From positions 1 through 64,000 of the IMG/VR virus record IMGVR_UViG_3300047483_000490: a stretch of 64,000 nucleotides of DNA; one strand, written 5' to 3'. A program made the translations under genes and the position numbers. Source of the DNA: a virus. The notes beneath the pieces are model-generated. The model worked only from the letters and a program-made list of their open reading frames with translations, made no database searches and was not told where the DNA came from. The first letter of the stretch is position 1. The number at the start of each line of letters is the position of its first letter. Positions 2,912 through 59,371 of the stretch are shown piece by piece.

Positions 2912-3259
2912 ATGGAAAAGTTTATTATCAAACCAAGCAGACCCTTTGGAACTGCATTTGCCATTGTAAATACTTTAAGCGGTACTTATATATGTCCAGG
3001 TTGGCACCCAGTGCCATCAGGAACTACCAGAGATCAAATAGAGTTTGATATGACTAACTATATTGAGACAAAACCAAAAGAACACGTAAAAGAAGTTACA
3101 GAAGTTAAATCTTATACAGTTGAAGCTTCAAAACCAGGTAAATTTTACGAAGTTAAAAATAATAACGGTAAATGGAGTTGTACTTGCCCGTCAGCTTCAT
3201 TTCACAGAGGAGATTGTAAACACATAAAAAAATTAAAAGAAGATGCCACAAATATTTAA
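2912..3259 (+). CDS. SWIM zinc-finger protein
   Basis: 115 residues. The C-terminal part carries a SWIM-type zinc finger: CTC near residue 91, then C and H in GDCKHIKK (about 102-107). SWIM domains bind DNA or protein partners and occur in recombination and ubiquitin-related proteins. The N-terminal half has no recognisable domain. It overlaps the start of the nucleotidyltransferase gene by 17 bp, so the two are probably co-translated. Confidence 0.7.
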   Translation: MEKFIIKPSRPFGTAFAIVNTLSGTYICPGWHPVPSGTTRDQIEFDMTNYIETKPKEHVKEVTEVKSYTVEASKPGKFYEVKNNNGKWSCTCPSASFHRGDCKHIKKLKEDATNI

Positions 3260-3980
3260 AGTAGGAGGTTGCGTAAGAGACAGATTGCTTGGATTAGAGT
3301 CCAACGATATTGACTTTACATTTGTCTTAGATAATCTAGACAGAACCGTAGAAGAAGGATTTCAAATCATGACAGAATGGTTAGACCATAAAATGTTTAC
3401 AATATTTCTGAGTACACCAGAATGTTTTACGATTAGAGCTAAGTTTCCACAAGGTCATGAGAATGAAGGAATGGTAGCTGACTTTGTATTAGCTCGTAAA
3501 GAAGTCGGTTACGAAGAAGGAACTCGTAGACCAATCTTAGAACTTGGAACTCTTGAAGATGACTTAGTTCGTAGAGATTTTACAGTTAATGCCATGGCTG
3601 AAGATGAAAATGGAAATATTATCGATTTATTCGATGGTCAAGAGCATCTAAAACAAATGATTCTTGTAACTCCATTAGATCCTAAGTTGACATTTATGGA
3701 TGATCCTTTGAGAATTCTAAGAGCTTTTAGATTTTCAATTACCAAAGGATTTGTAATGTGTGAAGATATTCAAAGAGCAATCGCAGAACCATTGTTATGG
3801 GTTAAAATGAAAGAGGTAGTAAGTGCTCAAAGAATTAGAGAAGAGCTTACCAAATGTTTTCATGCAGACACAATGACTTCTTTGCAAATGTTATTCGTGT
3901 TAGAAGATGTGCACCCTGGAATGATTGAAGAAGTTTTATTTCAAGATGGAATGTGGTTGAAACCAACATTCGAAAAATAG
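3243..3980 (+). CDS. CCA-adding / poly(A) polymerase-type nucleotidyltransferase
   Basis: 245 residues. The head domain of class II tRNA nucleotidyltransferases is clear: GGCVRD at residues 8-13, the paired carboxylates DID at 22-24, then the RRDFTVNAMA block and DDPLRILRAFRF. It is much shorter than cellular CCA-adding enzymes (about 400 residues); the C-terminal body and tail helices are reduced. Most tRNAs in this window lack an encoded CCA, so maturing or repairing their 3' ends is the likely job. Whether it adds CCA, only A, or another tail cannot be read from sequence. Confidence 0.85.
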   Translation: MPQIFKVGGCVRDRLLGLESNDIDFTFVLDNLDRTVEEGFQIMTEWLDHKMFTIFLSTPECFTIRAKFPQGHENEGMVADFVLARKEVGYEEGTRRPILELGTLEDDLVRRDFTVNAMAEDENGNIIDLFDGQEHLKQMILVTPLDPKLTFMDDPLRILRAFRFSITKGFVMCEDIQRAIAEPLLWVKMKEVVSAQRIREELTKCFHADTMTSLQMLFVLEDVHPGMIEEVLFQDGMWLKPTFEK

Positions 3981-10543: not shown

Positions 10544-11974
10544 ATGAACTTAGTAGACGCTTTAAGACAAGAAGACATTTTAACAGAAAATGGTATGGCA
10601 ACTAATTCAACTTCGTTGAATGCATGTGTCGATTTATTTTTTAACATTGGTGCAATGAGAGGCCAAGACAAACAACGTTTGATCGCAACCTTTTCGAAAG
10701 CATTTAATGAAGATCCGAAGCGTGCTATGAAACTTTTGTTTTGGGCCAGAGATGTTAGAGGTGGTGCAGGTGAACGTCAAGTCTTCAAAGATATTTTAGT
10801 TTACTTAGCTGAAACTCATGATTTGGCTTTAAAACCAAACTTAGGCTTAATTGCAGAGTATGGTCGTTTTGATGACTTACTAACTTTAGTAGGAACTTAT
10901 TTAGAAAATGATGCTTTGCAAATTATTGCAGATGCTCTTAAATCTGAAAATGGTTTATGTGCAAAATGGATGCCACGTAAAGGTCAAGTAGCTGAAAAGT
11001 TACGTGCATTCTTGAAATTGTCACCAAAACAATATCGTAAAACTTTAGTTAATTTAACTAACGTTGTTGAAACTAAAATGTGTGCTAAAGAATGGGATTC
11101 TATTGAATTCGGTAAATTACCATCAGTGGCTTCAGCACGATACCAAAAAGCTTTCGGTAAAAATGCTTACGAAAGTTATTCAGCTTATATCCAATCCTTA
11201 GTGAAAGGTGAAGCTAAGATTAATGCAGGCGCAGTTTATCCTTATGATGTTGTAAAATCATTAACACACGGAAATGCAGCAGTAGCAAACGAACAATGGA
11301 AAGCCCTTCCAAATTACTTAGAAGGAGCAAACGATATGATTTTACCAGTGGTAGATGTTTCTGGTTCTATGTCTTGCTCTGCAGGAGGTAGTAAAACAGT
11401 AACATGTATGGATGTTGCAATCTCTTTAGGTCTTTATATTTCTGAAAGAAATGAAGGTCCTTTCAAAGATGCATTTATTACATTTTCAAACAATCCACAG
11501 TTACAAGTACTAAGTGGTTCATTGCAAGATCGCTACGCACAGATGTTATGTTCCGATTGGGGAATGTCAACAAATCTCGAGGCGACCTTCAAGCTGATCT
11601 TAGATCAGGCCACTAAACATAAATTGTCTCAAGACAAGATGCCAAATAAAGTTCTGATCTTGTCAGATATGGAATTTAATGCAGCAACTAGATCTAGCGG
11701 ATGGAGAAATACCGGATCAGATTGGAATCCAACTGCTCAACAAATGATTGAGAAAATGTACGAAGATGCAGGTTACAAAATGCCTCAAATCGTTTATTGG
11801 AACATTCAATCCAGAAATGGTGGAGTGCCAGTAGCATTTGACAAAGCAGGAACTGCATTAGTGTCAGGATTCTCTCCAGCAATTATGACAAGTTTACTTG
11901 GAGGAGATATTGAGTCTCCACAACAAATCATGGATAAAACAATCTTGAGCGAGAGATACGCTCCAATTGTTTAA
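10544..11974 (+). CDS. Ro60-like vWA RNA-binding protein (DUF2828 type)
   Basis: 476 residues. The N-terminal helical-repeat half begins with the DUF2828 signature (TENGMATNSTSLNACVDLFF; then LLFWARDVRGGAGERQ). The C-terminal half is a von Willebrand A domain with an intact MIDAS, DVSGS at 271-275. Helical repeats plus vWA is the architecture of Ro60/TROVE proteins, which bind Y RNAs and misfolded RNA and assist RNA decay or repair. DUF2828 is a separate family, so RNA binding is inferred from architecture and from the structured RNA placed 16 bp downstream, as Y RNAs often are. Not an enzyme by sequence. Confidence 0.75.
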   Translation: MNLVDALRQEDILTENGMATNSTSLNACVDLFFNIGAMRGQDKQRLIATFSKAFNEDPKRAMKLLFWARDVRGGAGERQVFKDILVYLAETHDLALKPNLGLIAEYGRFDDLLTLVGTYLENDALQIIADALKSENGLCAKWMPRKGQVAEKLRAFLKLSPKQYRKTLVNLTNVVETKMCAKEWDSIEFGKLPSVASARYQKAFGKNAYESYSAYIQSLVKGEAKINAGAVYPYDVVKSLTHGNAAVANEQWKALPNYLEGANDMILPVVDVSGSMSCSAGGSKTVTCMDVAISLGLYISERNEGPFKDAFITFSNNPQLQVLSGSLQDRYAQMLCSDWGMSTNLEATFKLILDQATKHKLSQDKMPNKVLILSDMEFNAATRSSGWRNTGSDWNPTAQQMIEKMYEDAGYKMPQIVYWNIQSRNGGVPVAFDKAGTALVSGFSPAIMTSLLGGDIESPQQIMDKTILSERYAPIV

Positions 11975-11990: not shown

Positions 11991-12048
11991 TGGTTCCTTA
12001 CAGCAAACTATAAAAAGCAATCACTTAACTAGCAAACGATTGGAACCA
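11991..12048 (+). ncRNA. CAGCAA-loop RNA element A
   Basis: Helix TGGTTCC/GGAACCA encloses TTACAGCAA on the left and AGCAAACGATT on the right. It shares this frame with elements at 12052, 56537, 58110, 58261 and 58337. 58 nt; no tRNA insert. Placed directly behind the Ro60-like gene. Confidence 0.6.
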
Positions 12049-12051
12049 GGT

Positions 12052-14748: not shown

Positions 14749-15135
14749 ATGAAAGAATTATTTTTATTAAGAGGTTTACCAGGTTCTGGCAAATCAACAG
14801 TTGCGAAATCTTTAGGTGGAACACATCACGAGGCAGATCATTTCTTTACAAATAAGAAAGGCGAATATAAGTTTGAGGCTGTAAAGCTTTTACAAGCTCA
14901 TAAATATTGCCAATCATCTTGTAAAGAAGACATGGAAAACGGCGAAGAACGTATTGTTATCTCAAACACATTCACACAAGAATGGGAAATGGAAACCTAT
15001 TATACTTTGGCAAAAAAGTATGGTTATATTGTTTATGCTTTAATTGTTGAAAATAGACACAATGGAGTTAACCAACATGGTGTTCCAGCAGAAAAATTAA
15101 AGCAAATGGAAGACAGATTTGAGATACAATTGTAA
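14749..15135 (+). CDS. P-loop kinase, N4BP2/polynucleotide kinase-like
   Basis: 128 residues. Walker A GLPGSGKST at 9-17 right at the N-terminus, an HHEAD substrate-binding segment, ISNTFTQEWEM and a C-terminal lid with ENRHNGVNQHGVP. This pattern is the small AAA_33/N4BP2-like kinase family, related to polynucleotide 5' kinases. It follows the phosphoesterase by 10 bp, so 5'-kinase and phosphatase functions on nucleic-acid ends may be paired. Confidence 0.7.
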   Translation: MKELFLLRGLPGSGKSTVAKSLGGTHHEADHFFTNKKGEYKFEAVKLLQAHKYCQSSCKEDMENGEERIVISNTFTQEWEMETYYTLAKKYGYIVYALIVENRHNGVNQHGVPAEKLKQMEDRFEIQL

Positions 15136-18577: not shown

Positions 18578-19696
18578 ATGGAAAATCAAAATTCAGTTTG
18601 CTATGTAGCAAAAATTAACGAGATTAAAGCAATTGAAGGAGCTGACAATATTGAATTGGTAGTTGCTGGAGGTTGGAATGCTATTACAAAAAAAGGTGAA
18701 TTCACCGTAGGTTCATTAACTGTAATTGCAACAACTGACGCAGTTATTCCTGAAGCACTTTCTGAAAAGATGGGTGTTACTAATTATTTACGTAAAGGTC
18801 AAAGAGTTAGAACTGTAAAACTAAGAGGTGTTTACTCTGAATGTTTGATTATTCCAATAGTTCATATCAAGGCTTCTAGTATTAGAGAAGGTCGCGACTT
18901 AATGGAAGAATTAGGCATCACTAAATTCGAGCCACCGGTTAAACAAATCCAATTAACTTCTGGCAAAAAGATTCGTTACAGTGAAAATCCTAACTTTAAA
19001 ATCTATTACAAGTTTCCAAACTTGAAAAATGTTGCAGGTATGTTTACTGAAGAGAACGCAGTTCAAATCACTCGTAAATTACATGGAACTAACGCACGAT
19101 ATGGAATTGTAAAACGTAAGAAGATAGGATTACTTACAAAACTTAAAGCTTTTTTTGGTGACAAATGGGCTGGATATGAATTTGTAGTTGGTTCTCATAA
19201 CGTTGAAAAAGGTTCTGAATCACAAGGATTCTATGACACTAACGTGTGGTATGAAATTGCAGACAAATATAAGATCAAATCTAAGTTGTGGAATTTTATT
19301 AAAGAGACTGCAACACCTGAAGGAATTGGTGAAGGTTTTTGTATCTATGGTGAAATCTACGGTGCAGGAATTCAAAAGAATTACGAGTACGGTCTTACTG
19401 AAATTAAGTTTTCTATGTTTGACGTAACTCTTAATGGTGATTATGTACCAACCGGATGGACAGAAATGTATGCAAATGAATTAGGATTTGATCACGTTGA
19501 AGTTCTTTACGATGGCTTATGGTCTCAAGAAATTCAAGATCGTTTTGTCTTTAACAACTTTATTGAAGGCACCAAAGTGCCACATGAAGGAATTGTAATC
19601 AAACATGTCTCTGGTGAAAGAAGTAAAGTAGCTAAGGTTATTAACCCAGACTATTTAATCTACGGTGAAAAAAATAACGTAGGAGATTCTCACTAA
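18578..19696 (+). CDS. RNA ligase, Rnl5/DraRnl-like
   Basis: 372 residues. An N-terminal OB-like domain (about 1-110) precedes the nucleotidyltransferase domain with motif I KLHGTN (Lys167 as the AMP-accepting residue), motif III-like FCIYGEIYG, motif IV HEGIVIKH and motif V KVI. The N-terminal OB layout matches the Deinococcus DraRnl (Rnl5) type, which seals 3'-OH/5'-phosphate breaks. Probably repairs cleaved tRNAs, and could join permuted tRNA halves. It lies just after the 390-nt RNA and has its own promoter. Confidence 0.85.
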   Translation: MENQNSVCYVAKINEIKAIEGADNIELVVAGGWNAITKKGEFTVGSLTVIATTDAVIPEALSEKMGVTNYLRKGQRVRTVKLRGVYSECLIIPIVHIKASSIREGRDLMEELGITKFEPPVKQIQLTSGKKIRYSENPNFKIYYKFPNLKNVAGMFTEENAVQITRKLHGTNARYGIVKRKKIGLLTKLKAFFGDKWAGYEFVVGSHNVEKGSESQGFYDTNVWYEIADKYKIKSKLWNFIKETATPEGIGEGFCIYGEIYGAGIQKNYEYGLTEIKFSMFDVTLNGDYVPTGWTEMYANELGFDHVEVLYDGLWSQEIQDRFVFNNFIEGTKVPHEGIVIKHVSGERSKVAKVINPDYLIYGEKNNVGDSH

Positions 19697-26215: not shown

Positions 26216-27879
26216 TACAGTTAGGTATTTCAGCATTTTATCATGACTCTGCTGCATGTATTGTAAAAGACGGCAAGGTTTTAGCAGCAATAGAAGAAGA
26301 AAGATTTACAGGCATTAAACATGATTTTAGCTTTCCTAAAAAATCTATTGAGTGGTTATTTGACTATTTAAATTTAACAATAGAAGATATTGATGAAGTT
26401 TGTTGGTATGAAAATCCAGAGCTTAAAAAACAAAGGGTTCTTGCTACTTTTGACAAACATTTTTTCAAGTCATTCTTTAATAGAATTAAATTTTTAAAGA
26501 GACATAAAATAGAAGGCAACGTTAATGCTTTATTAGAACAACATCTAAATTACAATGGCAAAGTTACTCTTGTAGATCATCACATCTCACATGTCATGTT
26601 TGCATATAAGACTTCACCATTTGATGATTGTGCAATCGTTTCTATCGATGGTGTAGGTGAGTGGGATACGATGACAGTTTCTCAAGTTAAAGATGACAAG
26701 CTAATAAAAATTTCAGAGACAGTTTTTCCGCACTCTTTAGGTATGTTTTACTCAACATTCACTTCATTTTTAGGTTTTAAACCAAACGAAGGTGAATATA
26801 AAGTAATGGGTTTAGCACCTTATGGAAATCCAGAAGTTTATTACCCAGAATTGTTTGCCTTATTTACACTTTTACCAGAAGGTAGATTTTCTATCGATCA
26901 AAAATATTTTACGTGGGAATACTCAGACAAAATCATGTTCAAAGACACATTGTGTGAATATTTAAATATGGCTCCGAGAACTAAAGATGCTCCAATGGAA
27001 CAATGTCATAAAGACTTAGCAGCCTCGGTACAAATGGTATATGAACGTATTTTTATGCATATTTTAGAATTTGCAAAAGAACAAACCGGAAGCAATAATT
27101 TATGCCTTAGCGGTGGTTGTGCATATAATGGAGTTGCAAATAATAAAGCTTACAGATTGTTCGAACATATTTGGGTTCCCTTTGCCCCATCAGATTCAGG
27201 GTCAGCTATTGGTGCATGCCTAGCATCATATCCTGGTAAAACGGCAGATAATACGTCTCCATATTTAGGCTCAGAATTCAATCTATGGGACATTCATACA
27301 GCTATTACTTATTTTCAATTTGAGATTGATGTAAGAGAATTGACTGAAGAAGAACTAATAGAAAAAACGGCAACAGCTATTAACGAAAACAAAGTTATAG
27401 GCTGGTGTCAAGGTAGAATGGAATTTGGAGCTAGAGCTCTTGGAAATAGATCAATTCTTGCTAGTCCATTGGACCCAGAAATGAAGTCTAGACTAAATAG
27501 AGTTATTAAAAAGAGAGAAGGCTTTAGACCTTTTGCACCTTCGTGTATTGAAGAAGATGCTGCTAAATTCTTTGAAATTCAAGACACTGTGCCTTATATG
27601 AATCAAGTGATGCAAGTTAAAAAAGAATGGACATTACCTTCTATTACACACGCAGATGGTTCAGCTAGAGTACAGACAGTTAACAAAAATCAAAACGATA
27701 AATACTATAAGTTACTTAAAAAATTAGGTGATATTTCAGGATTTCCAATATCTTTGAATACTTCATTTAATTTTAAAGATCAAACCATAACTGCAACACC
27801 ACATGATGCAATTGAAAGATTTTTAGATTGTGAAATGGATGTTTTAGTAATTAATAACTATTATATAACAAAACTATGA
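26212..27879 (+). CDS. O-carbamoyltransferase, NodU/CmcH/TobZ family
   Basis: 555 residues. N-terminal ASKHA-like domain (GISAFYHDSAACIV, DHHISHVMFAYKTSPF, IDGVGEWDTM) and C-terminal domain (GWCQGRMEFGARALGNRSIL) match carbamoyltransferases that use carbamoyl phosphate and ATP to modify sugar hydroxyls. Length is normal. In this cassette the acceptor is probably a surface or virion glycan; modification of a DNA base is a less likely alternative. Confidence 0.9.
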   Translation: MIQLGISAFYHDSAACIVKDGKVLAAIEEERFTGIKHDFSFPKKSIEWLFDYLNLTIEDIDEVCWYENPELKKQRVLATFDKHFFKSFFNRIKFLKRHKIEGNVNALLEQHLNYNGKVTLVDHHISHVMFAYKTSPFDDCAIVSIDGVGEWDTMTVSQVKDDKLIKISETVFPHSLGMFYSTFTSFLGFKPNEGEYKVMGLAPYGNPEVYYPELFALFTLLPEGRFSIDQKYFTWEYSDKIMFKDTLCEYLNMAPRTKDAPMEQCHKDLAASVQMVYERIFMHILEFAKEQTGSNNLCLSGGCAYNGVANNKAYRLFEHIWVPFAPSDSGSAIGACLASYPGKTADNTSPYLGSEFNLWDIHTAITYFQFEIDVRELTEEELIEKTATAINENKVIGWCQGRMEFGARALGNRSILASPLDPEMKSRLNRVIKKREGFRPFAPSCIEEDAAKFFEIQDTVPYMNQVMQVKKEWTLPSITHADGSARVQTVNKNQNDKYYKLLKKLGDISGFPISLNTSFNFKDQTITATPHDAIERFLDCEMDVLVINNYYITKL

Positions 27880-31199: not shown

Positions 31200-31321
31200 G
31201 GTCGAGTGGTGTAATTGGTAACACAACAGGCCTTAGAGAGCAAGCGGTTCGATTCCACAAAGCTTAATGTAACTGGTAGTTACACATCCTGTTGATGTAG
31301 GTTCGAATCCTGCCTTGGCCA
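31200..31321 (+). tRNA. tRNA scaffold with insert in anticodon loop
   Basis: Acceptor GGTCGAG/CTTGGCC, D-arm GTGT/ACAC, anticodon stem ACAGG/CCTGT (31226-31230, 31288-31292) and T-arm GTAGG/CCTGC all pair. The loop has 57 nt in place of 7. The insert holds a T-loop-like GGTTCGATTCC followed by a D-arm-like TGTAA-CTGGTAG-TTACA, i.e. tRNA parts in reversed order. Confidence 0.6.
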
Positions 31322-31917: not shown

Positions 31918-32460
31918 ATGAAAAAGAAAGTAATTTTTATAGATGTAGATGGTCCATTGGCTTGGGCAACATGGGATGACGGTAAGGTTACTTTGAGAGA
32001 AGGATCTCACTTTGAGTTTCAGATTCCATACCCATGGGTTAAAGAAGACTGTGAAGCTTTGCAAAAAATATGTGATGCAACAGATGCAGAATTGGTAGTT
32101 AGCTCAGATTGGAAACATCACTTTAGTTTTATTCAGCTAAAGCATATATTTCAACATTATGGTATCACAGCTAATATCATTGATATTACAACGCACATGA
32201 ATGCTCGTCAAACTGGAGCTTGGCATAAAATGAGCAAGCCTTCAATTGATTTTGAAAGAGCTACACAAATTTTAAAATGGGCCAAAGACAATAAGGTTTC
32301 AAATTGGATTGCAATTGATGATTTAAATTTGAGTGAAGCTTTTAAATGGATGACACCACGAGAGCCAATGTGGAGGCACGTTCAAGTTGACGGTGATTGG
32401 GGATTCGGTGGAAGACTCAGAGACAAAGTTAATGAATGTATTAAAAAGTTAGAAAGATAA
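31918..32460 (+). CDS. HAD phosphatase of RNA-repair type (HAD_SAK-like)
   Basis: 180 residues. Nucleophile block FIDVDGPL (Asp9, Asp11), motif II VVSSDWK and motif III/IV WIAIDD define a HAD phosphatase. The VSSDW form is typical of the HAD domain found in Swiss-army-knife RNA-repair proteins, which are predicted to remove 3' or cyclic phosphates. Its place inside the tRNA array supports work on tRNA ends. Confidence 0.75.
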   Translation: MKKKVIFIDVDGPLAWATWDDGKVTLREGSHFEFQIPYPWVKEDCEALQKICDATDAELVVSSDWKHHFSFIQLKHIFQHYGITANIIDITTHMNARQTGAWHKMSKPSIDFERATQILKWAKDNKVSNWIAIDDLNLSEAFKWMTPREPMWRHVQVDGDWGFGGRLRDKVNECIKKLER

Positions 32461-56536: not shown

Positions 56537-56593
56537 AGGATGCTTCCAGCAAATTTACAAAACTTTATATGGAAAAGCAAAACATAGCATCCT
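56537..56593 (+). ncRNA. CAGCAA-loop RNA element C
   Basis: AGGATGC/GCATCCT helix around TTCCAGCAA on the left and AGCAAAACATA on the right, 57 nt. A T-run follows, so it might also end transcription. Confidence 0.6.
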
Positions 56594-56668
56594 GTTTTTT
56601 AAAATTTAAGAGTATGGACGGAGCAGCAGAAATTCTAGATAGCAGAAGTCTCAGGTCCTAACTCTCTC

Positions 56669-57864: not shown

Positions 57865-57936
57865 TTTTTTTTGAAACAAACACTCTTTATTGAGTATAAA
57901 CTTTACAATTAAATTTTAAAACTAAACAAACACAAA

Positions 57937-58101
57937 ATGAAAAAAGTATTTTTCGCAATCGCAGCTATCGTAGCAACAATCTCAATCGCTTCTTGTGGTA
58001 ATGGAGCAACTTCAAAAACTGAAACTACTGATTCTACAGCAGTTCAAGTTGATTCTACGCAAGTAGACACAGTTAGTGTTGACACTGTAACTGTAAAATA
58101 A
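57937..58101 (+). CDS. small lipoprotein, 54 aa
   Basis: Signal peptide with lipobox IASC (Cys20), then a Thr/Val/Asp/Ser-rich unstructured tail. A host-surface role is possible; function unknown. Confidence 0.6.
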   Translation: MKKVFFAIAAIVATISIASCGNGATSKTETTDSTAVQVDSTQVDTVSVDTVTVK

Positions 58102-58109
58102 ATCATTAA

Positions 58110-58250
58110 AGGTTTCTTACAGCAATTAAAATTCTATAGGAACTGGTATCGAAAGATGTGTAGGTTCGAGTCCTACCTCTCCAACAAATTTTAAAATAAT
58201 TGGAGAGTGGTGAAATTGGTAGACACGCTAGTCAGAAAAAACAGAAACCT
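58110..58250 (+). ncRNA. permuted tRNA-Leu-like RNA (element E1)
   Basis: Helix AGGTTTC/GAAACCT with TTACAGCAA on the left. Inside, the tRNA 3' half comes first: ACTGG (58142-58146), variable hairpin ATC-GAAA-GAT, T-arm GTAGG-TTCGAGT-CCTAC, CTCTCCA. After a 17-nt linker comes the 5' half: TGGAGAG (58201-58207), D-arm GTG/CAC with AAATTGGTAGA, CTAGT (58228-58232). Acceptor pairs 7 of 7 and CTAGT/ACTGG pairs as the anticodon stem. No clear anticodon loop. Confidence 0.75.
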
Positions 58251-58260
58251 GAAAATTATT

Positions 58261-58319
58261 GGAATACCTACAGCAAGCTTACCAAACTTTGACTTTTACT
58301 CAAACCAAATGCGTATTCC
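58261..58319 (+). ncRNA. CAGCAA-loop RNA element B with Lys-like anticodon arm
   Basis: GGAATAC/GTATTCC helix with CTACAGCAA on the left and CAAACCAAATGC on the right. In the middle is TTTGA-CTTTTAC-TCAAA, a 5-bp stem with a 7-nt loop reading UUU as anticodon with U33 and A37. 59 nt. Confidence 0.6.
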
Positions 58320-58336
58320 GTTAAATTATTTTATAA

Positions 58337-58471
58337 AGGATGGTTCCAGCAACACATACAAATTAGGCTGTTAACCTCGTGGTCGTCGGTTCGAACCCGG
58401 CCTTTGAACACCGCCTTAAGTGGCACGTTCAGAGTAGCTCAGTTGGTAGAGCACGTACAAAAGCCCATCCT
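58337..58471 (+). ncRNA. permuted tRNA-Asn(GUU) RNA (element E3)
   Basis: Outer helix AGGATGG/CCATCCT, left loop TTCCAGCAA. The 3' half comes first (58365-58409): AGG-CTGTTAA-CCTCG, TGGTC, T-arm GTCGG-TTCGAAC-CCGGC, CTTTGAA, C. The 5' half follows (58428-58455): TTCAGAG, TA, D-arm GCTC-AGTTGGTA-GAGC, A, CG. Joining CG to AGG gives stem CGAGG/CCTCG and a full tRNA-Asn. No other tRNA-Asn is in the window. Confidence 0.8.
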
Positions 58472-58559
58472 GATAAATTAAAAGTGTGTCTTGGTCCGCT
58501 CTGGCGAAAGTTAACGACAAGGTCCCGGTTGGCAGAAGGCCTCTGATCCAACCCAAAAC
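58472..58559 (+). other. hairpin-rich spacer before tRNA-Gly
   Basis: GGTTGG/CCAACC with nested CAGA/TCTG; no ORF. A TTGGTCCG segment resembles the Y-RNA Ro-site word but is too short to rely on. Confidence 0.3.
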
Positions 58560-58631
58560 GCAGCAATGGTATAACGGTTATCACACCGCCTTGCCAAGGC
58601 GGATATCGCAGTTCGATTCTGCGTTGCTGCT
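58560..58631 (+). tRNA. tRNA-Gly(GCC)
   Basis: GCAGCAA/TTGCTGC, CCGCC-TTGCCAA-GGCGG, CGCAG/CTGCG, CCA encoded (58632-58634). Confidence 0.94.
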
Positions 58632-58634
58632 CCA

Positions 58635-58827
58635 GTAGATTTTTTAGCGTGGCGTGGATTCAGCAGACTTGTTAAATCTTAAAAGAAACAAGATAAGGTA
58701 ATAAGAATCAAGTTTGACAGTGATTATCTTTGAACAACTGTACTGCTTTGGTGATCGATCGCCCGTTCCCAGTATCGAATGAAAACTCGTAAGGCAAGAT
58801 GCAAAACTGTAGCGCATCACCAAAGTT
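58635..58827 (+). ncRNA. structured RNA with 10-bp closing helix
   Basis: CTTTGGTGAT/ATCACCAAAG (58746-58755, 58816-58825) closes 60 nt with CGAT/ATCG inside. Upstream are ATCTT/AAGAT and ACTTG/CAAGT. No ORF. A terminator follows at 58828. Confidence 0.5.
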
Positions 58828-58865
58828 AAAAGGGAACCCGTGCACATGGTTCCCTTTTCTTTTTT
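58828..58865 (+). terminator. rho-independent terminator
   Basis: AAAAGGGAACC/GGTTCCCTTTT with T-run, ending the RNA-rich region. Confidence 0.9.
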
Positions 58866-58915
58866 AGATGAAACAAATTGACTTAAATAAATATAACAAC
58901 TAAAATATATTTTAT

Positions 58916-59371
58916 ATGCTTAACATTTTCTCATATTGGTACAACTTTCTTAGAGAGTTAAGACTACTTTACAAATACCGCAAAGCTGCATTATCTTTAA
59001 AAACTGAATTAGAATCAGAAGGTTTAAGAGTTGATAATTTAGGTAGAATCTACACAGTTATCAATCTAAAAGAAGAGTTGTTAGCTCAACCAGAATTGAT
59101 GCAGCAATCATATGTTTTAGGTCAATTAGGTCCTTTAACAAACATCTTAATGAAATACGGAATGGCTGATAGTTCATTTCCTGAAATTGAAAAAATCGAA
59201 GGTTCTGCTTCTTATTTGATCATTCTTTGGCCAGAAAGAGATTACGTAGACGTCGGTGAATTTATTACAAGTACAGCTATAACAGTTATTGTAGCATGCG
59301 TTACTTGGTTAGCATTTAAATTTGTACCTTGGGCTTGGGTAATAGCATCAGTACAACAATTTACTGCTTAA
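58916..59371 (+). CDS. membrane-anchored hypothetical protein, 151 aa
   Basis: Helical N-terminus, then an alpha/beta domain, then one or two C-terminal membrane helices (about 115-147). Overlaps the exonuclease ATG by 1 bp. Unknown. Confidence 0.6.
   Translation: MLNIFSYWYNFLRELRLLYKYRKAALSLKTELESEGLRVDNLGRIYTVINLKEELLAQPELMQQSYVLGQLGPLTNILMKYGMADSSFPEIEKIEGSASYLIILWPERDYVDVGEFITSTAITVIVACVTWLAFKFVPWAWVIASVQQFTA

Follow-up and report, generated by a model that had tools for sequence, protein, structure and literature searches.

A permuted tRNA-Asn-like element in a phage genome, probably a Y-RNA-like partner of a Ro60-like protein

Results

The DNA analyzed here (the window) is a stretch of 64,000 nucleotides (nt), positions 1 to 64,000 of the IMG/VR virus record IMGVR_UViG_3300047483_000490, which comprises 79,635 bases and may be a fragment. 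Two of its features are at issue, a permuted tRNA-like element at 58337-58471 and a DUF2828 gene for a Ro60-like protein at 10544-11974, both on the plus strand. The element is closed by an end stem, AGGATGG (58337-58343) pairing with CCATCCT (58465-58471), and the motif TTCCAGCAA (58344-58352) directly follows the 5' arm. It encloses an Asn-like module (58365-58455), the 3' half of which (58365-58409) stands 5' of its 5' half (58428-58455). The 3' half consists of AGG (58365-58367), the loop CTGTTAA (58368-58374), CCTCG (58375-58379), a T-arm (58385-58401), and the acceptor strand CTTTGAA (58402-58408); the 5' half consists of the acceptor strand TTCAGAG (58428-58434), a D-arm (58437-58452), and then A and CG up to 58455. 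Rejoined, the halves form a full tRNA-Asn cloverleaf with seven acceptor pairs, one of them G.U, and a linker of 19 nt joins the acceptor strands. This fold with its paired ends, claimed in a preliminary description of the window, was confirmed by reading the sequence and by a permuted-tRNA scan, in which the Asn element scored 14.0, a Leu-like module at 58110-58250 scored 13.5, and two poor matches scored 11.0 and 12.0. At a score cut of 13, none of 20 shuffles of the window gave a match. ARAGORN found 17 tRNA genes in several clusters of the window and none in positions 60000-79635 of the record. No tRNA-Asn was detected in either part, in agreement with the claim that the module is the only tRNA-Asn of the window.

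The preliminary description overlooked the Leu-like module, three short scaffold elements, and the Ro60-like gene. The Leu-like module (58110-58250, plus strand; stem AGGTTTC/GAAACCT, motif TTACAGCAA) is carried by the same scaffold as the Asn element. Its anticodon stem is CTAGT/ACTGG, and its anticodon loop is open and lacks U33. Relatives at loci L003 and L005 (loci in other records are given L numbers) show a compensatory change in the anticodon stem, and their acceptor has one T.T mismatch. The three short elements, all on the plus strand, carry no tRNA. They lie at 58261-58319 (GGAATAC-CTACAGCAA-...-GTATTCC), at 56537-56593 (AGGATGC-TTCCAGCAA-...-GCATCCT), and at 11991-12048 (TGGTTCC-TTACAGCAA-...-GGAACCA), the last beginning 17 nt past the end of the DUF2828 gene, a relative position repeated in most of L047-L126. 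The element at 58261-58319 has a counterpart in L003 and L004, and in L009 it reads GGGATAC/GTATCCC. All five elements are built alike: the end stem, about 7 bp long and without interruption, is directly followed by YNCAGCAA, and then come a loop and the 3' arm. The three tRNA-free elements were taken from a first stem-plus-motif scan that returned 13 rows in the window, including chance-like matches. A strict scan returned four elements, all on the plus strand (11992-12047, 56538-56592, 58111-58249, and 58338-58470); it missed 58261-58319. Single-sequence folding of the five elements against shuffles was only partly supportive of the scaffold, with z values of -2.55 for the Asn element, -2.89 for 56537-56593, -2.29 for 11991-12048, only -1.71 for the Leu-like module, and only -0.86 for 58261-58319.

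Pairing was then examined in relatives. Among 90 unique permuted cores, 24 were dropped for weak anticodon stems, and the remaining 66 comprised 39 of class 1, 8 of class 2, and 19 unassigned. Most of these loci had been collected with patterns in which portions of the anticodon arm or D-arm are fixed, so anticodon frequencies are biased. Among 38 loci chosen by the anticodon arm alone, a downstream D-arm was present in 31; the seven without it (L131, L138, L148, L153, L154, L165, and L168) were left out. Across the 16 distinct acceptor pairs of the loci picked this way, 106 of 112 cells were paired (shuffled mean 0.48, maximum 0.67), and at least 6 of 7 positions paired in 15 of the 16 distinct cases. 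Because these acceptors pair at loci picked by the anticodon arm alone, chance is excluded. With the arm placed as in the window, one base ahead of the motif, the end stem was paired at 6 of 6 positions in 23 of the 24 distinct rows (mean after shuffling 6.7, maximum 12); with the arm at the motif itself, only 8 of 24 paired fully. In the 34 class-1 rows whose junction follows position 28 (33 rows for the end stem), two-sided changes occurred in every one of the 7 columns of the acceptor and in 3 of the 5 columns of the anticodon stem; percentages from this set are inflated because its arms were chosen for pairing (T stem 5/5, acceptor at least 6/7, end stem best of several). The structure of the anticodon arm is conserved, in most cases with U33. 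In the 39 unique class-1 modules, the two acceptor strands are joined by a linker of 3 to 24 nt. This linker was 6 nt or shorter in 17 of them, including five UUCG loops, so that distinct 5' and 3' ends would have little space. Computation thus establishes a permuted fold with covariation on a common scaffold.

The protein encoded at 10544-11974 matches DUF2828 and DUF7788 in Pfam and phrog_850, "RNA-binding protein." The Pfam TROVE family (PF05731) had no match anywhere in the record, and for this reason the DUF2828 protein was examined by structure. An AlphaFold2 model from 26 sequences reached a predicted local distance difference test score (pLDDT) of 80.7 and replaced an alignment-free fold with a pLDDT of 44. 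In a VIA search, this model retrieved Ro60 at Z 21.6 over 392 aligned residues with 13% identity. Each of the top ten rows was an entry for Ro60, Rsr, or TROVE, one being the Ro60 from Thermus phage phiLo, and the eleventh, the first entry other than Ro60, scored 11.9. The best Foldseek matches were a TROVE protein and Rsr, and hhalign of the phage TROVE and DUF2828 profiles gave a probability of 94 over 237 C-terminal columns, mainly the von Willebrand factor A (vWA) part. A sequence search of the PDB returned nothing useful. The model shows the Ro60 hallmark of a HEAT-like ring and a vWA domain with a metal ion-dependent adhesion site (DxSGSM). As judged from the predicted structure, the protein has a Ro60 fold.

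A search of 50,697 phage records found DUF2828 homologs in 682, among them records of phages of Escherichia, Salmonella, Vibrio, Listeria, Staphylococcus, and Mycobacterium. Among the matches listed, most are annotated as hypothetical or RNA-binding, and at least three mycobacteriophage records name the homolog a Ro-like RNA binding protein. In Chloroflexota, DUF7788 is infrequent, occurring in 2 of 201 genomes. DUF2828 proteins also occur in eukaryotes.

Scaffold elements are associated with the Ro60-type gene in other phages. The strict scan was applied to 84 DUF2828 loci, 80 viral and 4 from genome assemblies, many of them near-identical and not independent. An element lay within 700 nt of the gene on the same strand at 69 of the 84, by a rule for the tail after the stem that was relaxed after the loci had been seen and was therefore tuned on these same data. 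The background at the same loci (575 kb) was six matches on the plus and none on the minus strand, and shuffled flanks gave an element at 0-1 of 84 loci. Two Chloroflexi loci, with proteins 43-44% identical, carry AAAGGTTCCTTACAGCAA...GGAACCTG upstream of the gene. By eye, large structured-looking stretches that open with a CTGCAAA variant of the motif lie 3' of the DUF2828 gene in L127, L128, and L109. In a loose scan of ten named phages, elements were found near the gene in seven: E. coli phage garuso, Listeria phage LMTA-94, Mycobacterium phage Douge, Enterococcus phage EFDG1, Vibrio phage PhiImVa-1, Staphylococcus phage Ph13, and, as a variant, Citrobacter phage Ci1. A second scan with shuffles found two to five elements in 6 of the 10 (shuffle means 0.1 to 0.3); one of garuso's five lies inside coding sequence, and garuso and EFDG1 each had one match on the minus strand. 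In garuso (Felixounavirus garuso), four stem-plus-ACAGCAA elements follow the DUF2828 gene within the tRNA cluster of the phage, and one of the four holds a T-arm/D-arm module. A DNA similarity search with the region among named phages returned 23 records with short matches, and among the matches listed many fell in tRNA genes. A narrow search with a flank pattern found one locus. In Vibrio phage PhiImVa-1 (L228, 2614-2959), a linear tRNA that is annotated as a 115-nt suppressor tRNA contains an ACAGCAA insertion and appears by eye to be nested in the permuted tRNA of another stem-plus-ACAGCAA element.

A scan for the D-arm with its 3' flank collected 67 stretches. Many of these hold whole tRNAs in permuted order whose anticodons differ from that of the Asn module, and some hold ordinary tRNAs. 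At some loci, a stem with GTTACTTC replaces CAGCAA, and permuted tRNA modules occur in this TTACTTC scaffold too. Among 46 records, DUF7788 was present in 20 and TROVE in 8 (7 over the cut-off), and none had both. The seven TTACTTC loci (L170, L171, L174, L175, L176, L186, and L188) are all in TROVE records; L171 was among the unassigned cores and L186 was unlisted in the core classification, though both have the TTACTTC scaffold. Seventeen CAGCAA-type loci, including the variants CTGCAA, CCGCAA, and CAGCAT, are in DUF7788 records. Elements of stem plus TACTTC, several in tandem, lie about 100-800 nt upstream of the TROVE gene in 7 of 8 loci, in a scan that permitted stems of 5 bp and gave chance matches on the opposite strand in 5 of the 8. 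The eighth locus, L217, has same-strand TACTTC matches inside and after the frame. The Rfam YrlA model gave 27-45 bits in 5 of 6 TROVE loci, below its gathering score. In L211, the open reading frame after the TROVE gene looks by eye like an RtcB ligase.

A linear tRNA-Asn with an insertion of about 50 nt at the same CG/AGG site as in the permuted Asn module occurs in the seven loci left out above, where it closes a series of roughly six to eight TTACTTC repeats. Neither TROVE nor DUF7788 was found in these seven records. A protein of about 696 residues (phrog_33734) is encoded upstream of the array in at least L138, L148, L153, and L165; it matched neither the DUF2828 or TROVE profiles nor Pfam.

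No Rfam family reached its gathering score on the scaffold elements, and no description of the scaffold was found in the literature searched. In YrlA (RF02553), which acts with Rsr, the partner is likewise of the Ro60 type, the ends are paired, and the T-arm precedes the D-arm with the acceptor between them. The phage modules show the same permutation of tRNA-like D, T, and acceptor arms, and a Ro60-type protein is encoded in the same genome. Unlike YrlA, the phage element has a full anticodon arm, an end stem with YNCAGCAA, and a DUF2828-type partner, and YrlA scores were 30.6 bits on the Asn element and 14.8 bits, against a gathering score of 69. The Ro-binding stem of bacterial Y RNAs has a bulged C (PMC4030889); none was seen in the five window elements, whose ends pair in arms of at least 7 nt with uninterrupted stems.

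Another resemblance is to Class I RNA of Dictyostelium (RF01414), described as 42-65 nt long with a 6-bp stem, an invariant 5' G, an adjacent 11-nt motif, an AAG start, and a CUGU end; that study lists none outside Dictyostelia (PMC7919456). By that description, the short phage elements (57-59 nt) fall in the same length range and share the short end stem and a motif beside the 5' arm, and some phage elements begin with AAG and end with CUG. At E<=1, RF01414 had exactly three matches in the record, 56538-56594 (28.7 bits, E 8.9e-5), 58111-58251 (24.1 bits), and 11992-12049 (17.9 bits). All three are scaffold elements; 58261-58319 was missed, and at the same threshold 7 of 14 whole control genomes were also matched. 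The best scores, 28.7 bits in the record and 32 bits in 40 DUF2828 records, lie below the gathering score of 41.5. At E<=0.01, matches were found in 17 of the 40 DUF2828 records versus 1 of 33 others (16 of which had their DUF7788 status tested), and that one was the record of L022, itself with a scaffold element. At E<=0.1, the counts were 24 of 40 and 10 of 33, and 4 of the 14 control genomes were matched as well. The DUF2828 records gave 32 matches, 17 of them within 700 nt of the gene. The scaffold thus reaches the tested thresholds of neither YrlA nor Class I RNA.

For Listeria phage CKA15, abundant noncoding RNAs near an Rsr-like gene were suggested to be Y RNAs (PMC12282133), and the parts of that paper relevant here mention no motif or permuted tRNA. 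Of three such regions, the most transcribed noncoding one (26236-26727 in the record of L230) is a different stretch of about 490 nt without the scaffold; the scaffold elements of this phage lie at 25553-25290.

Several genes of the window, all on the plus strand, encode proteins of RNA-processing type that are candidate partners of the tRNA-like module: an RNA ligase, possibly for RNA repair (18578-19696; PF09414, DRB0094-like but below the cut-off of that model), an AAA_33 kinase-like protein with weak polynucleotide-kinase matches (14749-15135), a Pfam HAD_SAK_2 phosphatase domain of the RNA-repair type (31918-32460), and the head domain of a CCA-adding-type nucleotidyltransferase, below equivalog cut-offs (3243-3980). 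At 31200-31321, a 122-nt Rfam tRNA match absent from the ARAGORN set has an anticodon-loop insertion of about 50 nt that resembles a T-arm followed by a D-arm. A hairpin-rich stretch at 58480-58557, between the Asn-like element and a tRNA-Gly gene, has similar counterparts in L003 and L014.

Discussion

The element at 58337-58471 is, in our judgment, very probably a Y-RNA-like tRNA mimic that partners the Ro60-like protein of the phage and not a permuted tRNA gene. This is the best reading of the data, supported by the five scaffold elements in one phage, three of them without a tRNA. The end stem and YNCAGCAA would form a docking scaffold for the phage's own DUF2828 ring (10544-11974). The remainder would fold as a complete mimic of tRNA-Asn, joined to the scaffold through the anticodon stem between positions 28 and 29, and the RNA would be used as transcribed, with no splicing and no release of a tRNA. 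Most likely, the mimic would bring a tRNA-binding enzyme of RNA decay or repair, from host or phage, to the Ro60 ring. Such a tethering role would parallel that of YrlA, which joins Rsr to polynucleotide phosphorylase (PMC8394870). A jumbo-phage survey (PMC7824862) mentions ROT/TROVE proteins, which work in cells with a tRNA-like partner. We infer physical binding, a partner enzyme, and a benefit to the phage. A passing remark in the preliminary description, that bacterial YrlA Y RNAs have the same topology, proved a better lead than its proposal of a tRNA gene.

That proposal would require RNase P and a 3' nuclease to cut the linker, removal of the end stem at the CG/AGG junction, ligation of the halves, and addition of CCA. 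A perfect tRNA-Asn fold with U33 and a GUU anticodon speaks for it, as do compensatory anticodon stems in relatives, the lack of any other detected tRNA-Asn, an RNA ligase and a CCA-adding-type gene in the phage, and anticodons in relatives that are varied but plausible; the structurally kept anticodon arm is its best point. The fold is real, conserved, and covarying, but the status of tRNA gene found no support. The scaffold occurs three times in the same phage without a tRNA and is tied to a Ro60-like gene, the linkers of 17 of 39 class-1 relatives are too short to leave much room for processed ends, 5 of the 39 carry an AUU anticodon, and the Leu-like sister lacks U33. Position 73 of the Asn module is C; the usual Asn discriminator is G73. 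Permuted tRNA genes of algae and archaea likewise have the 3' half before the 5' half and are processed by a splicing endonuclease at bulge-helix-bulge motifs, whereas neither a splicing endonuclease (PF01974) nor RtcB was found in this record, which is possibly fragmentary. A genuine permuted tRNA gene is therefore improbable. Two other accounts are very unlikely. Chance juxtaposition of two tRNA remnants in a decaying cluster would suit a window with 17 ARAGORN tRNAs in several clusters, but it is already contradicted by the conserved pairing of acceptor and anticodon strands across the reversed order, also in loci unselected for pairing, and by 0 of 20 shuffles. A permuted self-splicing intron that releases a circular tRNA has topology alone in its favor; it was rejected, since no intron family reached gathering in the window or appeared among the weak matches at 57900-59000, and the flanks, only about 10-20 nt between end stem and exon, are too short.

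The main alternative concerns the function of the tRNA module and keeps the scaffold and the Ro60 partner as proposed: the module might be a decoy for host anticodon nucleases or other tRNA-targeting defenses instead of a tether. Intact anticodon arms, anticodons that differ between phages, and RNA-repair-type genes in the phage would fit a decoy, and a role as competitive inhibitor was suggested, as a proposal only, for Salmonella YrlA (PMC7790460). Against a decoy, the target nuclease is hypothetical and three scaffold elements of this phage contain no tRNA. We regard the decoy as possible yet the less likely of the two functions.

Several observations weigh against a Y-RNA-like mimic with a Ro60 partner. 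The textbook anticodon loop of the Asn module exceeds the needs of a YrlA-type mimic, its 19-nt linker is long enough for processing, and the phage encodes a CCA-adding-type protein and an RNA ligase. The YrlA match of the element stays below gathering (30.6 versus 69 bits), and the elements at 58261-58319 and 58110-58250 fold no better than many shuffles. The first strict scan, which demanded TG after the stem, found only 33 of 84 DUF2828 loci, and TG or AG was allowed after many loci were seen to end in CCAG. Even then, 15 of 84 failed; in two of these, L090 and L107, the sequence stops no more than about 100 nt from the gene, and several of the rest have a variant by eye, for example GGAATAATTGCAGCAA. 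Among the named phages, the loose scan found in Ci1 a CTGCAT/CAGCAT variant only, nothing near the gene in KVP40 and AsFcp_2, and in Serratia phage BF one match without the full motif; the second scan found one weak match in AsFcp_2 and none in Ci1, KVP40, and BF. DUF7788 had no match in 6 of 12 records with Asn-type elements, nor in those of L184, L194, and L205 (37-110 kb, possibly fragments).

The results point to a family of RNAs with members in many tailed phages. Its likeness to RF01414 may reflect either shared ancestry or convergent evolution toward a similar binding site. Tentatively, and with the odds somewhat against it, the phage stem-plus-CAGCAA RNAs and Dictyostelium Class I RNAs could be one ancient family, the unrecognized partner RNA of DUF2828-type Ro60. 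Phages would then have repeatedly inserted whole tRNA copies, permuted or linear, into its loop, aiming the Ro60 ring at tRNA-handling enzymes or defenses. If so, these would be the first candidate relatives of Class I RNA outside amoebae. Permuted or intron-bearing phage "tRNAs" may, as a caution, be tRNA mimics. If two scaffolds of two Ro60 families each acquired whole tRNAs in permuted form at the same site of the anticodon stem, the convergence would be striking. With a partner RNA, if real, the DUF2828 protein would no longer be a large orphan but part of a Ro60-RNA particle that can be tested, and in a phage that infects E. coli K-12.
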